Below, one piece after another: positions 621 to 7,831 of a stretch of DNA of 7,831 nucleotides. The position numbers and the translations under genes were made by a program. The notes beneath the pieces are model-generated. The model did no database searches and had not been told where the DNA came from. It worked only from the letters and a program-made list of their open reading frames with translations. Every line of letters starts with the position of its first letter. Position 1 is the first letter of the stretch. Source of the DNA: Anaerolineae bacterium. Lineage in GTDB: Bacteria > Chloroflexota > Anaerolineae > JAFGEY01. The stretch is taken from assembly GCA_016929205.1 (NCBI GenBank), contig JAFGJF010000552.1, positions 1-7,831 on the forward strand. Direction: 5' to 3'.

Positions 621-1664
621 CTACACGACCTCGATCCCCTCGCCTTCCATCACCTCGCCGATCACCCAGCAAGGATGGCCAGCCCGAGCAAAGAGAGTCA
701 GCAGCACATCGAGCTTGTCCCGAGAAACGGCCGCCAGCAACCCGCCTGACGTTTCAGGGGTAAAGAGCAAGAGCTGCATTTCTTCAGACAGACTGGAAGC
801 ATCTACGTGCTGCGCGTAGGCGCGCTGATTGTTGCAGGACCCGCCGGGAAAAAGATTGTCTTCGGCATAGGTCACTGCCCCAGAGACAAAAGGAATTTCA
901 TCAAAAAAGAACCGCAACCGCACACCACCCTTTGCCGCCATCTCGTGACCGTGGCCCAGTAAAGAAAAGCCGGTGATGTCGGTGCAGGCGTTTGCCCCCA
1001 CCCGGCCGATCAAACGCGCGGCCTCACGGCTCAGGCGCTTCATACTCTCTACAGCCTCCATCACGTGGGCCAGATCGGCTACCTCTCCCTTGAGCGCGGT
1101 GGTGACCATACCGACGCCCAGCGGCTTGGTCAGGAGCAGGGCATCGCCCGGTCGGGCGCCTCCCTTGGTCCATATGCGGTCGGGATGGATCAGCCCCATC
1201 ACCGCCAGGCCGTAGACCGGCTCTTTGGCATCAATGGTATGACCACCAGCCAACACGCCCCCGGCTTCAGCAATCTTGTCTGCGCCGCCGCGTAAAATCT
1301 TGCCCACAATCCCATCCGGCAACTCGGGCGGAAAACCGCAGACATTGAGCGCCAGCGTCACCTCACCACCCATAGCATAGATGTCACTCATCGCGTTGGC
1401 CGCGGCGATGGCTCCATAGTCGTACGGATCGTCCACGATCGGAGTAAAAAAATCGACCGTTTGGATGACGGCAACCTCGTCGTTGATCTTGTAGACGGCA
1501 GCGTCGTCGCTCACCTCCAGGCCGACGAGCAGATTGCGATGCTGCTCGGCGGCGAACAGTCCTGCTAACGGGCGCAGCACCTGCGCCAGGGCCTCGGGCC
1601 CTTTCTTGGCCGCTCACCCCGCCGCACTGGAGAGAGCAGTCAAACGAATCTCTACGTTGGTCAT
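621..1664 (-). CDS. selD: Selenide, water dikinase SelD (selenophosphate synthase), selenoprotein with in-frame UGA at codon 17
   Basis: SelD makes selenophosphate, the selenium donor for selenocysteine and other selenium cofactors, from selenide and ATP. The uninterrupted frame begins only after a TGA at 1616-1614. Reading through it extends the protein to an ATG at 1664-1662 with GGGAGG just upstream. The product is 347 residues, the same length as E. coli SelD. The N-terminal motif becomes SSAAG-U-AAKKGPE, with Sec17 and Lys20 where E. coli has catalytic Cys17 and Lys20. Other family motifs follow: DDAAVY (D53/D54), TVDFFTP (D71), NAMSDIYAMGG (D94), AGGHTIDA (about 139-146), TDITGF (D229) and a C-terminal TPETSGGLL. 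Sec in this position is known in many bacterial SelDs. The gene lies 52 nt after the desulfurase and 16 nt before the M55 gene. An annotation starting at GTG 1580 would lose the catalytic residue. Confidence 0.95.
1571..1587 (-). promoter_or_regulatory. Candidate bacterial SECIS hairpin for selD Sec17
   Basis: On the minus strand, 26 nt after the UGA, GGCGCA and TGCGCC form a perfect 6-bp stem around the loop GGTGC. The loop begins 32 nt after the UGA, inside the roughly 16-37 nt window described for bacterial SECIS elements, and it starts with G as the consensus requires. The segment GCAGGTGCTGC closely resembles the GCAGGTCTGC apex of E. coli fdhF, which SelB recognises. The element lies inside the coding sequence, as is normal in bacteria. 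A second hairpin lies closer to the UGA (1588-1602), so the choice between the two is inference. Confidence 0.65.
1588..1602 (-). promoter_or_regulatory. Alternative UGA-proximal hairpin in selD
   Basis: AGGGCC and GGCCCT form a 6-bp stem around a CGA triloop that starts 17 nt after the Sec UGA. It has a G in the second loop position, so it also meets the loose bacterial SECIS rules. The loop is very small and lacks the GGU motif of the downstream hairpin. It could be the true SECIS, stack under the downstream hairpin, or simply slow the ribosome. Confidence 0.35.
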
Positions 1665-1716
1665 AAGCCTCCCATATCCACGTGCCTGAGAAAAAGTATC
1701 CTGTTTTCCAAACTTG

Positions 1717-2868
1717 CTACGTTTCCTGAGCCAATGTCGCTATGGCGGCTAGCGCCGTTTCCACCTCGTCAATCGTGTTGAAACTACTCAGACCAAAACG
1801 TGCCGAGCCATGAGGAAAAGTTCCCATCGTCTTGTGCGCTGCCGGCGCGCAGTGCAAGCCCACCCGACACATGATAGCATACTCGTCGTCCAGGCACAAC
1901 CCAACCTCCGAGGAGGCCATACCGATAACATTGAACGAGACCGTTGCCGTTTGAAGCTCCGCATCCAGCGTACCATGCACGGTCACACCGGGTATGCTGC
2001 GCAGTCCCCCGATCAGCCGCTGCGCCAGAGCCACCTCGTGGGCACGGATTGCGTCGATGCCCTGTGCCAGCACCCAGCGCACGCCCACCAGCAGCCCGGC
2101 CAGGCCAACCACATTGGGCGTGCCGCTTTCGCCCAGGTCAGGCAAAAAGTCGGGCTGTATCTCGTGCTCTGAACGGCTGCCCGTGCCACCGCGCACCAGC
2201 GGTTCGATCTGCGTCTCATCCACCCGCTCGCCCACGATCAAGCCACCGGTGCCCATCGGGCCGCCGAGTGACTTGTGGCCAGTAAACCCCAGCAGGTCGA
2301 TCTGATCAGCCTGCATGTCGATCGGATACGCACCGCCCGTCTGAGCGCTATCCACCAACAAGAGCACATCGTGCTGGCGACACATCGCACCCACCGCGGC
2401 GACTGGCAGCAGCGTGCCCACCACATTGGAGGCGTGATTGAGCGCCACCAGCCTGGTGTGGGGACGAATCGCTGCCTTGACGTCGGCAGGATCGAGCATA
2501 CCCTGCGGCGAGCAGTTCACCACCGTCAGATCAATTCCGTCTTGCTCCAACGCGCGCAGGGGGCGCATCATCGCATTGTGCTCCATCGAGCTGGTTACCA
2601 CGTGATCGCCAGCGCGCAGCAAGCCCCGCAGCGCCAGATTGAGCGCCTCGGTCACGTTCTTGCACCACACTACGCGCAGCGGATCCGGCGCGTGGAACAG
2701 CTTGCACACCGCCTCGCGGGCATCATAGACGATCCGTCCCGCATCTACGGCCAGGCGATGCGCTGCACGGCCTGGATTTGCGCCCACCTCTTCCATAAAG
2801 TGAACCATTGCTTCGGCCACACCCGGCGGTTTGGGCCAGGAGGTTGCCGCGTTATCAAAATAGATCAT
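1717..2868 (-). CDS. NifS-like cysteine desulfurase / selenocysteine lyase family protein (EF2568 type)
   Basis: This is a class-V fold PLP enzyme that should take sulfur from cysteine, or selenium from selenocysteine, as an enzyme-bound per(sulfide/selenide). The start MIYFDNAATSWPKPP is typical of the am_tr_V_EF2568 family. K199 in TGHKSLGG is the expected PLP Schiff-base lysine, H-N-A in SSMEHNAMM and D-S-A-Q in LVDSAQTGG are cofactor-pocket motifs, and C340 in VGLHCAP is the catalytic cysteine. I chose ATG 2868 (383 residues) because it matches the family N-terminus and has GGGAG five bases upstream. An in-frame ATG at 2928 would add 20 residues without a family match, but it sits 4 nt after the TusA-fragment stop, so it remains possible. 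Members of this family are known beside selD in selenium-using bacteria, which favours a role supplying selenide to the next gene. Substrate preference cannot be read from the sequence. Confidence 0.9.
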   Translation of the reverse strand: MIYFDNAATSWPKPPGVAEAMVHFMEEVGANPGRAAHRLAVDAGRIVYDAREAVCKLFHAPDPLRVVWCKNVTEALNLALRGLLRAGDHVVTSSMEHNAMMRPLRALEQDGIDLTVVNCSPQGMLDPADVKAAIRPHTRLVALNHASNVVGTLLPVAAVGAMCRQHDVLLLVDSAQTGGAYPIDMQADQIDLLGFTGHKSLGGPMGTGGLIVGERVDETQIEPLVRGGTGSRSEHEIQPDFLPDLGESGTPNVVGLAGLLVGVRWVLAQGIDAIRAHEVALAQRLIGGLRSIPGVTVHGTLDAELQTATVSFNVIGMASSEVGLCLDDEYAIMCRVGLHCAPAAHKTMGTFPHGSARFGLSSFNTIDEVETALAAIATLAQET

Positions 2869-2932
2869 GTATTCTCCCAACCATGGCGGACAATAGGTGA
2901 CCCCATCGTCCGCCCTATACGCGTTCATAAGC

Positions 2933-3049
2933 TCATTTCATCAGCATCAACCTGAACTCGTCTCCTAACGCCGTCACCTGCACCGTACAGCCGAGTTTTT
3001 CTGCCGCGCGTTTGACGTTCTCGCGCGAGGTCACGGTCTCAAGTGGGTG
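2933..3049 (-). pseudogene. C-terminal remnant of a TusA-family sulfur carrier protein
   Basis: The last 39 sense codons before the stop at 2935-2933 include TSRENVKRAAEKLGC followed by VQVTALGDEFRLMLMK. This resembles the C-terminal half of TusA/SirA domains, whose usual pattern is an ENV-R-A-E-G helix followed by two short strands. The N-terminal half, including the CPxP active-site cysteine motif, is missing. The reading frame hits a TGA at 3052-3050, and an adjacent frame upstream (RDVILMGDTH) has no CPxP motif either. No convincing ribosome site serves a short version, although a GTG at 3034 could start one. TusA-like carriers commonly pair with desulfurases and SelD, and the stop lies only 4 nt from an in-frame ATG of the desulfurase frame. 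I infer a once-complete operon gene that was truncated or frameshifted. A sequencing error in the frame cannot be excluded. Confidence 0.6.
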
Positions 3050-3320
3050 TCACCCATCAGGATCACGTCGCGGATCGATCCTATGATGCAAAGGCGGGTA
3101 CGTTGGGCTAAAAAGCCGATCAGAAGCAGCTCCACGCGTCTTGCGACACCATTTGACGCAGCACACGACATGGATCAAAAAAACGCTACCGGCATACACG
3201 GCAGCGGGACAAGAAAGATTCTATGCCTGCCAGGGAGTGGCATCGCCGCCCGCTAACGTGTGCCGGTCTGCCTGTGAGCGCCAACTGGCCCCTGACACAC
3301 AGATCAAATCTGGCGATGAA

Positions 3321-3537: not shown

Positions 3538-4014
3538 GTGAACACAACTCAGACCGAGATGGCCCTAGTGCTGCGCCAGGGCGGATACAGACTCACCCAG
3601 CCTCGACTGGCTGTTTTGCAGGTGCTCGAAAAAAACGATGAGGGGCTCAACCCGGAAGCGATATACCAGCAGGGCAAAACGATCTGCCCATCATTGGGCC
3701 TGGTGACCGTCTACCGAACGTTGGACCTGCTCACCGAGCTGGGCCTGGTTCGGCGCGTACACAGCGGACATCGCTGCCACAGTTATGCCTGCGCGGGGTC
3801 TGATCGCCACCATTTGATCTGCCAGGCCTGCCACCGCGTGATCGAGTTTCCGTGTAATGGCCTGGATGGCCTGATCGAAAGCGTCCGGCGGCGAACGGGA
3901 TATACGATCACGGAGCATTTGCTTGAATTGAGCGGTCTGTGTCCAGAGTGTCAGGATGGGAAAAGCACAAGTGGATCGGCAGGTTCCCACTCATCGTGTG
4001 CCCACACAGACTAA
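3538..4014 (+). CDS. Fur-family metal-responsive repressor, probably zinc regulator Zur
   Basis: This is a 158-residue cytoplasmic DNA-binding dimer of the Fur superfamily. The winged-helix N-domain spans roughly residues 10-75, with TQPRLAVL and a recognition region ending VTVYRTLDLL. The dimerisation and metal-binding domain follows, with HSGHRCHSY and HHLICQAC. Two CxxC pairs, C95/C98 and C135/C138, match the structural zinc site of Fur/Zur proteins. The tail after residue 140 is hydrophilic and includes extra His and Cys. The start is GTG 3538, with AAGGTG at 3525-3530 and a 7-nt gap. ATG 3559 is an alternative without such a site. It leads an operon with a metal-uptake ABC importer, and a TGAAAA-N3-TTTTCA dyad lies in its leader, so zinc-dependent repression of the importer is the likely role. 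Zn versus Fe or Mn specificity is inferred. Confidence 0.88.
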   Translation: MNTTQTEMALVLRQGGYRLTQPRLAVLQVLEKNDEGLNPEAIYQQGKTICPSLGLVTVYRTLDLLTELGLVRRVHSGHRCHSYACAGSDRHHLICQACHRVIEFPCNGLDGLIESVRRRTGYTITEHLLELSGLCPECQDGKSTSGSAGSHSSCAHTD

Positions 4015-4061
4015 TTTCTTTTTGTCTGTTATTGAAAATGGTTCTTCACAAGGAGATGGCA

Positions 4062-5087
4062 ATGAAAAGACCGGGTGTTTGGCTACTTTCATTTTTGGCC
4101 GTTCTATTCCTGGTTGTGTTCTCAACCAGTGGCTGTCGCTCCAAAGCGGTTGACGATCATCAACAAGAACAAAGCGAAACCGCGATACTAGCACTGCCCA
4201 AACTGAAAGCCGTCGACCTCGGTGGCACTCCACTCAAAGTGGTGGCAACAACCAGTATCATCGGCGACGTGGTCGCCCAAGTGGGAAGAGATGCCATCGA
4301 GCTGATCACACTGATGGGACCAGGACAGGATCCGCACGGCTACAAACCGACTGCGCAAGACATGGCGGCTGTATCCAGGGCCCACGTCATCTTTGTCAAC
4401 GGCTGGAACCTGGAAGAAACGCTGGTTCTCGACCTGGAAAATATCGGCCAAGAGATTCCCTTCGTTCCCGTCTCGGCCAACATCAAGCCGTTGGCGTTCG
4501 GCGGGCACGAGAACGAGCCCGGTGAGGACGCAGATCATCGCCACGAGGATGCCGATCCGCATACATGGTTCAGCATCCACAACGTGAAACAGTGGGTAGA
4601 GAATATCGAGTATGTGCTTGGCGACCTTGATCCGGCCAACGCCGCGACCTATGAAAACAATGCCAAGGCCTACCTGGCCAAGCTGGAGGAGCTCGAGTTG
4701 TATGTCGAGACCCAACTGGCCAGTATCCCGTCTGAACGCCGTTTTTTGGTCACTAACCACAATTCGTTCGGCTACCTGGCTCACGAGTACAATCTGTCAG
4801 TTCTGGGCACAGTCATTCCCGCAGCGAGTACGATGGCAGAACCCTCGGCAAGTGATTTGTCCGGGTTGATCACCAAGATGGAGGAACATGGCATCTGCAC
4901 CCTGTTCACCGAAACGACGGTCAACGACAAACTGGCGCAAACGGTCGCTGCAGAACTGGATGGTTGTGATGAGGTCCGGGTGCTCAAGCTCTTTACGGGC
5001 GCCGTTGGCCCGGCAGGGAGCGGTGCAGACAGTTACATCGGCATGTTTCGTTATAACGTGGACACAATTGTGGAAGGATTGCAATAG
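4062..5087 (+). CDS. znuA: Metal ABC transporter substrate-binding lipoprotein, ZnuA-like
   Basis: This is the cluster A-I metal-binding protein that captures Zn2+ (or Mn2+) outside the membrane and hands it to the permease. I chose ATG 4062 (341 residues) because AAGGAG lies six bases upstream and the product starts with a lipoprotein signal: MKRPG, a hydrophobic core, and Cys25 in STSGC. The -3 residue is Thr, a mild departure from the usual lipobox. The ZnuA/TroA fold begins near VVATTSIIGDVV. Likely metal ligands are H92 (DPHGYKP), H167 (DPHTWFS), H233 (TNHNSFGY) and D323 (DSYIGM). The His/Asp/Glu-rich loop between H149 and H167 is typical of zinc-binding members. The gene lies 47 nt after the regulator and before the ATPase and permease. 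Zinc over manganese is inferred from the loop and operator. Confidence 0.9.
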   Translation: MKRPGVWLLSFLAVLFLVVFSTSGCRSKAVDDHQQEQSETAILALPKLKAVDLGGTPLKVVATTSIIGDVVAQVGRDAIELITLMGPGQDPHGYKPTAQDMAAVSRAHVIFVNGWNLEETLVLDLENIGQEIPFVPVSANIKPLAFGGHENEPGEDADHRHEDADPHTWFSIHNVKQWVENIEYVLGDLDPANAATYENNAKAYLAKLEELELYVETQLASIPSERRFLVTNHNSFGYLAHEYNLSVLGTVIPAASTMAEPSASDLSGLITKMEEHGICTLFTETTVNDKLAQTVAAELDGCDEVRVLKLFTGAVGPAGSGADSYIGMFRYNVDTIVEGLQ

Positions 5088-5131
5088 GCTCTTTCTTGCA
5101 CTTTGTCCACTATTCGAGTACACTATGGGCT

Positions 5132-5989
5132 ATGGTTGAACAAATACTGTCCACAACATACCGGGGTACGGCTCACAAACCGGACGCCCCCACGCTTCAA
5201 CTGCGTAACATATCGGTTGCCTATGCAGCCGGCAATGGCTTTGCTGTGTCTCATACCGACCAATACGCACTCCAGGACATCTCTTTCCAGATCGGCCAAG
5301 GCGAGCAAGTTGCCGTGGTCGGCCCCAACGGAGCGGGCAAGAGCACGTTGTTCAAATTGATCGTCGGCATACTCAAGCCAAACGATGGTGAGGTGCACAT
5401 ATGCGGCCACGCGCCTGACCGGCACACTTGCATCGCCTATGTGCCGCAGCGCAGCCAGATCGATTGGTCTTTTCCGGTGACGGTTGAGGATGTGGTTATG
5501 ATGGGACGGATCGGGCGAATGGGCCTCTTGCACCGGCCCCGTCGTAACGATCGAACATCAGTCCGGGCCAGCCTAGCCCGAGTCGACGCCCTCGACTTGG
5601 CGCAAAAGCAGATCGGCGAGCTCTCTGGAGGCCAGCAGCAGCGCGTGTTCATCGCCCGTGCGTTGGCCCAACAAGCATCACTGCTCATGCTGGACGAACC
5701 ACTGTCTGGCCTCGATGTGCCCAGCCAGCAGGCCATTTTTAAAATCCTGGCTTCTTTGCGTCCCGACGGCGTGACCGTGCTGGTGGCAACCCACGATCTA
5801 AACCTGGCAGCGGAACGTTTTGACCGGGTGATGTTGTTGAACAAACGGATCGTGGCCTTTGACCAGGGGTCGGCTGTGCTTACGGCCGAAAACCTGGTGG
5901 CCGCTTATGGCGGTCACGTCCACCGCATCGGCCAGGACGCCACTATGCTGCTGGCGGACAGTTGTTGCGAAGGTGAGGAGCATCACTAG
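5132..5989 (+). CDS. znuC: Metal ABC transporter ATP-binding protein, ZnuC/MntB-like
   Basis: This is the ATPase subunit that powers metal import at the cytoplasmic face. With ATG 5132 it has 286 residues. Walker A GPNGAGKST is at 64-72, the Q-loop Gln is Q106 in YVPQRSQIDW, the signature LSGGQQQR starts at 164, Walker B LLMLDEP is at 184-190 and the switch histidine is H221 in ATHDLNLA. The block QRSQIDWSFPVTVEDVVMMGR is characteristic of zinc/manganese importers. The start is uncertain: no clear ribosome site precedes 5132, and a TTG at 5096 would add 12 residues. The ATG lies 44 nt after znuA, possibly served by translational coupling, and the stop abuts the permease start. The C-terminal tail DSCCEGEEHH is rich in Cys, Glu and His and could bind metal, though that is speculative. 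Confidence 0.92.
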   Translation: MVEQILSTTYRGTAHKPDAPTLQLRNISVAYAAGNGFAVSHTDQYALQDISFQIGQGEQVAVVGPNGAGKSTLFKLIVGILKPNDGEVHICGHAPDRHTCIAYVPQRSQIDWSFPVTVEDVVMMGRIGRMGLLHRPRRNDRTSVRASLARVDALDLAQKQIGELSGGQQQRVFIARALAQQASLLMLDEPLSGLDVPSQQAIFKILASLRPDGVTVLVATHDLNLAAERFDRVMLLNKRIVAFDQGSAVLTAENLVAAYGGHVHRIGQDATMLLADSCCEGEEHH

Positions 5990-6820
5990 ATGGATTGGCT
6001 ACTTGATCCCCTGCAATTCAGCTTTATCGTGCATGCTTTGATCGCTGCAGTGATCGTGGGTATCGTCTGCTCGGTGCTGGGCACATACGTTGTCTTGCGG
6101 GGTATGGCTTTCTTTGGTGATGCCTTGGCGCACACCATCCTGCCCGGTGTGGTAATCGCCTTTTTGCTGGGCTGGCCATTGGCCGTTGGCGCGCTCATCG
6201 TAGGCATCCTGGCCGCACTGGGCATCGGCGTTCTTACAGAACGGGGCACACTAAAAGAAGACGCTGCCATCGGCGTCATCTTTGCCGGGCTGTTTGCGTT
6301 GGGCATCGCCCTGTTGTCCATGTCGGGCAATTACACAATCGACTTGGCTCACTTTTTGTTTGGTAACCTGTTGGGGGTCTCCAAGAGCGACCTGTGGGTG
6401 ATCGCAGGACTGGGAGCAGTCGTGCTCGCGACGATTTACTTGTTTTACAAAGAGTTCCTGGTCATCTCTTTCGACCCGATACTGGCTGTGACGCTCCGTT
6501 TGCCAACCACCTTTTTCCGTTACTTGTTGCTGGTGTTGATGGCCGTAACCATCGTGACTGCGCTTCAGGTCGTGGGCATCGCCCTGATGTTGGCTATGTT
6601 TGTCACACCCGCGGCGACCGCTTCTTTGCTGACCCGTCGTCTCCCATCAATGATGGCCGTCGCCGCATCCATCGGTGCGTTTTCCGGCATTGCTGGGCTG
6701 TATGCCTCATTCTATCTAAACGTCGCCTCGGGAGCAGCCGTTGTTTTGGTTGCCACCCTGATTTTCTTGTTGGTCTTTCTGTTTGCGCCCGGACGCGGGC
6801 TTGTCCGGCGGCGAGCATAG
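5990..6820 (+). CDS. znuB: Metal ABC transporter permease, ZnuB/MntB-like (ABC-3 family)
   Basis: This 276-residue integral membrane protein forms the channel of the metal importer. Hydrophobic segments run almost throughout, starting near residues 12-35. The conserved family segment VLRGMAFFGDALAHTILPG lies at about 35-53, and VVGIALMLAMFVTPAATA is another family signature in the C-terminal half. The last residues, GLVRRRA, are basic, consistent with a cytoplasmic end. ATG 5990 follows the ATPase stop codon with no gap and is served by GAGGAG at 5975-5980 inside that gene, so the two are tightly coupled. Length is normal for the family. Zn versus Mn preference cannot be told from the permease alone. 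Confidence 0.92.
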   Translation: MDWLLDPLQFSFIVHALIAAVIVGIVCSVLGTYVVLRGMAFFGDALAHTILPGVVIAFLLGWPLAVGALIVGILAALGIGVLTERGTLKEDAAIGVIFAGLFALGIALLSMSGNYTIDLAHFLFGNLLGVSKSDLWVIAGLGAVVLATIYLFYKEFLVISFDPILAVTLRLPTTFFRYLLLVLMAVTIVTALQVVGIALMLAMFVTPAATASLLTRRLPSMMAVAASIGAFSGIAGLYASFYLNVASGAAVVLVATLIFLLVFLFAPGRGLVRRRA

Positions 6821-6954: not shown

Positions 6955-7831
6955 ATGTCCGAATGGTCGAATCGGCACCGGCTGGTTGGTAGGGTCATCT
7001 TGATCGCGATCGTGTCGATCTTGAGTCTGGCGGCGTGCAGCCGCCCAGAATCAACTCCGATCGATGAGCCAACAACATCAGTGCCCGCAACTGCAACGTC
7101 AACGCCAACGCCAATGCCCTCATCAACACCAACCACGACGCAAACGTCGACCGCCACACCATCGCCGACACCGACGTCGACCGCCACATCATCACCGACA
7201 CCGACGTCGACCGCCACATCATCACCGACACCGACGTCGACCGCCACGCCATCGCCAACACCGACATTGATTCAGTCCTTGCCACCGACTTCAACACCAA
7301 CCCCGGTATACGCAGCTCCCACGGCCACACCTGCACCGGAGGCACGGGTACAGCTTGTCCTGGTCATGCCCCCAGGCGGCGACATGCTCGGCGCAAGCTC
7401 GACCTTTGACGTTGTGCGTCGGCGTGGCATCCGCACACTCTGCTTTGTCTCTCTGGACAATCATCCCGATTTTGTGCGTCTGAGCATCGCCGATGGGCAC
7501 TTGCCGGGGCTGGTCGTTCGCGCGAACGAGGATCCGATCAACCAGATCGCCAAGTGGGAAATGCTGCTGAAACGGATCATGGGAGGGCTGTTCACACCCA
7601 AACTGGCCGTTGCCGAAGAGGCAGCAGATATCCCTACGCTGGAACGGCAGGGCTATACCGTCATCCAGCCCGATCTGGTCGTGAACGGCGAGGCCGGTCA
7701 GGTCGTGCAAGCGACGCTGGACAAAGACGGCGTGCAGCGCTTTGCCAACCTCGCTTATGCCGCAGCATCGAACGGTCTTGGACTGGGGCCGCACGAGATT
7801 GCCGAGCGTGAGAATACAAAACCCTTTGCCC
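6955..7831 (+). CDS. Putative lipoprotein with Thr/Pro-rich stalk, function unknown, 3' end cut by the window edge
   Basis: ATG 6955 has GGAGA five bases upstream. The product starts with a short basic region and a hydrophobic core ending in a good lipobox, SLAAC, with Cys28. Residues about 40-130 are a low-complexity Thr/Pro/Ser stalk including four copies of the decapeptide TSTATxSPTP. From about residue 130 a globular part begins, with VQLVLVMPPGG, FDVVRRRGIRTLCFVS, then LPGLVVRANEDPINQIAKWEMLLKRIM. The last visible part includes LAYAAASNGLGLGPHEIAE. I do not recognise the domain. It is likely an envelope-anchored protein whose domain is held away from the membrane by the stalk. 292 codons are visible. 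It lies 134 nt after the permease, with no clear terminator or promoter between them, so it may be a separate unit. Such stalks are common in Chloroflexota. Confidence 0.8.
   Translation, partial: MSEWSNRHRLVGRVILIAIVSILSLAACSRPESTPIDEPTTSVPATATSTPTPMPSSTPTTTQTSTATPSPTPTSTATSSPTPTSTATSSPTPTSTATPSPTPTLIQSLPPTSTPTPVYAAPTATPAPEARVQLVLVMPPGGDMLGASSTFDVVRRRGIRTLCFVSLDNHPDFVRLSIADGHLPGLVVRANEDPINQIAKWEMLLKRIMGGLFTPKLAVAEEAADIPTLERQGYTVIQPDLVVNGEAGQVVQATLDKDGVQRFANLAYAAASNGLGLGPHEIAERENTKPFA
7144..7263 (+). repeat. Four 30-bp in-frame tandem repeats in the lipoprotein stalk
   Basis: Units start at 7144, 7174, 7204 and 7234, each beginning ACGTCGACCGCCAC and encoding TSTATxSPTP. Units 2 and 3 are identical in DNA. 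Units 1 and 4 differ at a few positions, mostly in the ACATCATCA part. Because each unit is 30 bp, gain or loss keeps the reading frame and would only change stalk length. Confidence 0.95.

Follow-up and report, generated by a model that had tools for sequence, protein, structure and literature searches.

An in-frame UGA at the catalytic position of selD in an Anaerolineae bacterium is almost certainly read as selenocysteine

Introduction

Among bacteria, SelD (selenophosphate synthetase) and FdhA were described in 2006 as the most widespread selenoproteins (PMC1794560). In a 223-genome reference set the selenocysteine (Sec)-containing form made up 19% of SelD genes, always with Sec at the same site; the bSECIS hairpins of these genes were recovered by RNAz, and selenoprotein genes were reported to be usually misannotated (PMC4561486). 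A 2026 account places selenophosphate synthetase, with the motif UxxK, under 'experimentally verified' (PMC13188914). A set of genes comprising yedE, a TusA/SirA-like gene, a Sec lyase-like gene, DUF3343, yedF and selD has been tied to selenium use (PMC5322559).

Here we analyze a 7,831-nt stretch of DNA from an Anaerolineae bacterium (assembly GCA_016929205.1, contig JAFGJF010000552.1), referred to as the window. Its selD shares with Sec-containing SelD/SPS2 (TIGR00476, UxxK) the family score, a Sec/Cys residue 17, Lys20 and downstream hairpins. Nothing essential differs, the particular feature being its origin in an uncultured lineage that lies close to Thermoflexia and KSB3 sequences. The initial annotation of this DNA had stated that many bacterial SelD proteins carry Sec at this position, which agrees with its standing as a standard selenoprotein family (PMC4561486, PMC1794560, PMC13188914). 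The window's selD is a further case of the textbook Sec-SelD arrangement, correct and ordinary; an in-frame UGA in selD is well known, and apt to be overlooked by ordinary gene finders.

The selD frame and its in-frame UGA

The selD frame runs on the minus strand from ATG 1664 to TAG 621 and comprises 347 codons with a single TGA inside. The features of the gene are as follows.

621–1664, minus strand: selD, selenophosphate synthetase, with UGA 17 almost certainly read as Sec (TIGR00476, AIRS domains, frame with one TGA)
1614–1616, minus strand: TGA codon 17, putative selenocysteine (aligned to Cys17 of 3u0o; TGA or Cys in relatives)
1668–1673, minus strand: GGGAGG, possible ribosome site (from the sequence)
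1578–1580, minus strand: GTG, the start for a standard gene call, past the Sec codon (open reading frame listing)

Bases 1614–1616 are TCA on the plus strand and TGA on the minus strand, so that the in-frame UGA reported at codon 17 is present in the sequence, and reading through it restores the ATG start and the 347-residue protein that had been described. The ribosome site claimed before this ATG stands in part: GGGAGG is there, but just 3 nt 5' of the start codon, a short spacing. In the standard-code listing of open reading frames the selD frame begins only at GTG 1580 and gives 319 amino acids.

The frame stays open for 330 codons 3' of the TGA, and this part has a full SelD score; the 16 codons 5' of the TGA retain SelD family sequence. 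The product reaches 370.4 bits with the curated SelD model TIGR00476 (cut-off 125) and contains AIRS (PF00586) and AIRS_C (PF02769), both above their cut-offs. In a gap-free phmmer alignment to PDB 3u0o ('Selenide, water dikinase'), which we take to be the E. coli SelD enzyme, UGA 17 falls on Cys17 and Lys20 on Lys20. The product therefore carries the UxxK of Sec-containing SelD, with U17 and K20 on C17 and K20 of 3u0o, and the proposed match to Cys17 and Lys20 of the E. coli protein holds, given the presumed identity of 3u0o.

Codon 17 in relatives and the SelD tree

For comparison, we took the best 80 of 105 confirmed SelD loci, each from a named genome; one of the 80 (L059) does not extend over codon 17. 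Among the 79 covering loci, codon 17 is TGA in 61, TGC in 11 and TGT in 7; TAA, TAG or a non-Cys residue occurs there in 0 of the 79. UGA at this position is therefore more than chance. Aligning the N-terminus with SelD proteins, suggested in the initial annotation as a check, has thus placed the UGA on Cys17 of 3u0o and on TGA or Cys codons in 79 relatives.

Of 400 genomes surveyed in the phylum of the nearest relative, 351 yielded matches with E ≤ 0.001, although some of these matches are weak and are probably paralogues. By hand count, exactly one TGA lay inside the match in 135 of the best 150 rows listed and no stop in the other 15, TGA being counted anywhere inside the match irrespective of its position in the row. 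Neither TAA nor TAG was found inside the SelD match in any of these best 150 rows.

For the SelD tree, the window protein was combined with those of 78 loci, giving 79 proteins in all (61 Sec and 18 Cys forms), with L059 and the too short L047 omitted. The tree requires at least 7 switches between Sec and Cys, 5 of which are imposed by branches with good support. The window protein belongs to a supported clade of 7 Sec proteins (L001–L006 and the window), and the nearest 7 SelD proteins on the tree are all Sec forms. Its nearest relative, L001 from a Thermoflexia metagenome-assembled genome (MAG), is 74% identical. The hosts of this clade are Chloroflexota, KSB3, UASB270 and a Spirochaetaceae MAG; such a spread over phyla suggests inter-phylum transfer or misbinned contigs.

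Candidate SECIS hairpins downstream of the UGA

Published bSECIS limits are a stem of 4–16 bp, a loop of 3–9 nt with G in its first two positions, a distance of 16–37 nt from the UGA and a free energy of at most -7.5 kcal/mol (PMC13188914). Two candidate hairpins of the window lie within these limits.

1571–1587, minus strand: H2, candidate SECIS hairpin, +27 to +43 after the TGA, 7 bp stem, GUG loop (-11.3 kcal/mol; complete in 7/7 of the clade)
1588–1602, minus strand: H1, second candidate SECIS hairpin, +12 to +26, 6 bp stem, CGA loop (-9.8 kcal/mol; recoding test)

The GUG loop of H2 lies 33 nt past the UGA and the CGA loop of H1 17 nt past it. The GU opening the loop of H2 is the better match to the usual bSECIS pattern (PMC13188914). 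An Rfam search of the window with E up to 1 returned no match.

We compared the fold of the 51 nt after codon 17 with that of synonymous recodings. The mean z was -1.03 for TGA loci (n = 61) and +0.23 for Cys loci (n = 18; Mann-Whitney p = 2e-6, uncorrected for kinship among the loci), against -0.27 and -0.45, respectively, elsewhere in the same genes. The window's own z is modest (-1.08), which we count against the Sec reading.

The pairing within each hairpin was then set against 500 recodings drawn by each gene's codon usage, with 3 of the 80 sequences dropped for identical stretches. In the 60 TGA sequences, the window included, H1 keeps 263/360 pairs versus 215.4 by recoding and H2 276/420 versus 219.3, values reached in 0/500 recodings for either hairpin. 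The 17 Cys sequences show 50/102 versus 47.4 for H1 (reached in 128/500) and 50/119 versus 51.4 for H2 (350/500). The excess is also found in the TGA sequences outside the 7-member clade, both for H1 (233/318 versus 189.0; 0/500) and for H2 (227/371 versus 187.1; 0/500). Inside the clade, H2 is complete in all 7 members (49/49 pairs versus 32.2; 0/500), whereas H1 is not clearly above recoding (30/42 versus 27.0; 41/500). A separate run, in which codon usage was pooled and H1 was counted with 5 pairs, agrees and shows changes on both sides of the stem at H1 pairs 13–25, 14–24 and 15–23. When H1 was slid by +3 on both sides, 217/305 pairs formed versus 218 in register; codon conservation alone thus gives paired patterns, and it is the recoding control that must carry the argument.

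H1 exceeds recoding in the other TGA genes, and H2 pairs perfectly throughout the window's clade; one may speculate that the two form a composite signal or that the SelB site shifted from H1 to H2 in this clade, an idea we consider rather improbable. If such a shift were true, a single gene family would preserve the record of a moved recoding signal.

Sec-decoding machinery in related genomes

Within the window, no Sec gene other than selD was found, and ARAGORN found no tRNA; the former is counted against the Sec reading. Comparison with plasmid sequences yielded 167 records, all below 60% identity, and did not point to the host. We examined the genomes of 15 relatives (L001–L014 and L016), of which L009 and L010 carry Cys17. 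Above the curated cut-offs, tRNA-Sec was found in 14 of these genomes (all except G007), SelB in 12 (all except G003, G009 and G013) and SelA in 11 (all except G001, G007, G008 and G013). The nearest genome (G001) has tRNA-Sec at 66.9 bits and SelB at 340.3 bits, with no SelA match. Among 14 control genomes, tRNA-Sec passed its cut-off in 5, SelB in 2 and SelA in 1, so that tRNA-Sec matches near 47 bits carry little weight; the best matches in the 14 positive genomes of relatives score 62.2–78.3 bits. In 5 of the 5 genomes checked with ARAGORN (G001–G005), the best match was a tRNA-Sec with the UCA anticodon. At two loci, tRNA-Sec(UCA) genes lie a few kb from selD (L048:7949–8043 and L065:5119–5216).

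The genes upstream of selD

Upstream of selD lie a desulfurase gene and two gene remnants.

1717–2928, minus strand: cysteine desulfurase, EF2568 family, with a possible inner ATG at 2868 (TIGR01977, 431 bits, cut-off 377)
2936–3043, minus strand: remnant, the last 36 codons of a TusA-like gene (64% identity to residues 34–69 of the L003 TusA-like protein)
3040–3126, minus strand: remnant, 29 codons of yedE (86% identity to residues 225–253 of L003 YedE)

The desulfurase scores below the cut-off for the selenocysteine lyase SclA (NF040779, 369.9 bits versus 525). Directly upstream of it, the yedE and TusA-like remnants are joined in different frames. This scar reflects either a selenium cluster that was partly lost or decayed, or an assembly joining two places. 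We weighed whether a TGA at 3050–3052, immediately upstream of the TusA tail, might be a second Sec codon, and rejected this: the TusA match starts only 3' of the TGA, and what precedes the TGA is yedE in a different frame, which makes this TGA part of the broken joint.

The corresponding locus of Bacterium UASB270 (L003) has the order yedE, TusA-domain gene, desulfurase, DUF3343/Se-S carrier gene, tRNA, yedF and selD. Its yedE scores 481 bits with TIGR04112 (cut-off 200) and its yedF 202 bits with TIGR03527 (cut-off 110); PF01206 is found in the TusA-domain gene and PF11823 in the DUF3343/Se-S carrier gene. L003 therefore has around selD the whole selenium cluster as given in PMC5322559, whereas in the window the desulfurase still stands beside selD, and yedE and the TusA-like gene are present only as fragments. 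The gap of 52 nt between desulfurase and selD leaves no room for DUF3343 or yedF.

The tRNA of the UASB270 locus (L003:3064–3160) lies between the DUF3343 and yedF genes, is 97 nt long and scores 58.1 bits with the tRNA-Sec model while having a GCA (Cys) anticodon. On visual inspection, its long variable arm, 6 bp D-stem and U73 resemble those of the selC* tRNA-Cys described in PMC7609411. Beyond the yedE/tusA scar, the window carries on the plus strand (3538–6820), divergent from the selenium genes, genes for a Fur-family regulator and then for the substrate-binding protein, ATPase and permease of a zinc/manganese-type ABC transporter. An open-ended lipoprotein-like frame with a Thr/Pro/Ser-rich repeat follows at 6955–7830 (plus strand); it gave no Pfam or NCBIfam match.

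Interpretation of the UGA codon

We consider the gene an ordinary bacterial Sec-type SelD (probability about 0.96), with UGA 17 decoded as Sec via tRNA-Sec, SelB and a downstream hairpin, and with Sec17 and Lys20 making selenophosphate. At the catalytic position, the UGA almost certainly specifies selenocysteine. The Sec proposed for codon 17 in the initial annotation is supported by the TIGR00476 family score, the alternation of TGA and Cys codons, the hairpin excess specific to TGA genes and the Sec machinery in genomes of relatives. In the host, tRNA-Sec and SelB would decode UGA 17, guided by a hairpin just 3' of it in the mRNA; the hairpin bound by SelB would most likely be H2, with H1 as an accessory or alternative. 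Sec17 together with Lys20 would then form selenophosphate from selenide and ATP, and this product would be the selenium donor for Sec synthesis, that of SelD's own Sec included.

Were the TGA a true stop, selD would either be decaying or yield a shorter SelD from GTG 1580 that works without the N-terminal loop. The broken state of yedE and tusA, the selenium-associated genes immediately upstream, counts against the Sec reading and would fit such decay, and a start codon is indeed available after the TGA. Against this stand the 330 open codons beyond the TGA with their full SelD score, the family sequence kept in the 16 preceding codons, the restriction of codon 17 to TGA and Cys codons in 79 relatives, and the completeness of H2 in the window, and we regard a true stop as very improbable. 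Reading of the UGA as cysteine by a tRNA-Cys resembling tRNA-Sec (selC* type) appears extremely improbable. Such tRNAs are on record, some of them with a UCA anticodon (PMC7609411), and the long-armed tRNA found by the tRNA-Sec model in the selenium gene cluster of UASB270 also speaks for this reading; however, that tRNA has the GCA anticodon and reads Cys codons, its genome also has a tRNA-Sec (UCA), and the window has no tRNA.

A genome-wide reassignment of TGA to Trp, Gly or another amino acid would agree with the fact that 0 of the 6 complete genes of the window end with TGA. The 7 protein genes of the window (one cut by its edge) comprise 1991 codons, with 15 TGG, 194 GGN, 31 Cys codons and 1 in-frame TGA. 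A lone TGA in so many codons, beside abundant TGG and GGN and exactly at the Sec/Cys site of SelD, speaks against a change of the code, which we hold to be vanishingly improbable. The reading of UGA 17 as Sec is thus the one that we retain.

Annotation of Sec-containing SelD

In a protein search at least 7998 candidates were scored, and the best 120 of these were compared with the full-length product. All 120 start past the Sec codon, at query residue 21 (52 proteins), 29 (36), 30 (1) or 36 (31), and residue 17 is reached by 0 of these best 120 listed. The truncation of gene calls past the Sec codon, predicted in the initial annotation, thus holds for all 120 of these closest listed proteins in the database. 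They lack the catalytic residue because their gene calls start after the UGA, so surveys of predicted proteins would misread these enzymes. Though the window has no other Sec-decoding gene, its selD marks the host as a likely user of selenocysteine, and the main value of the finding lies in correct annotation.
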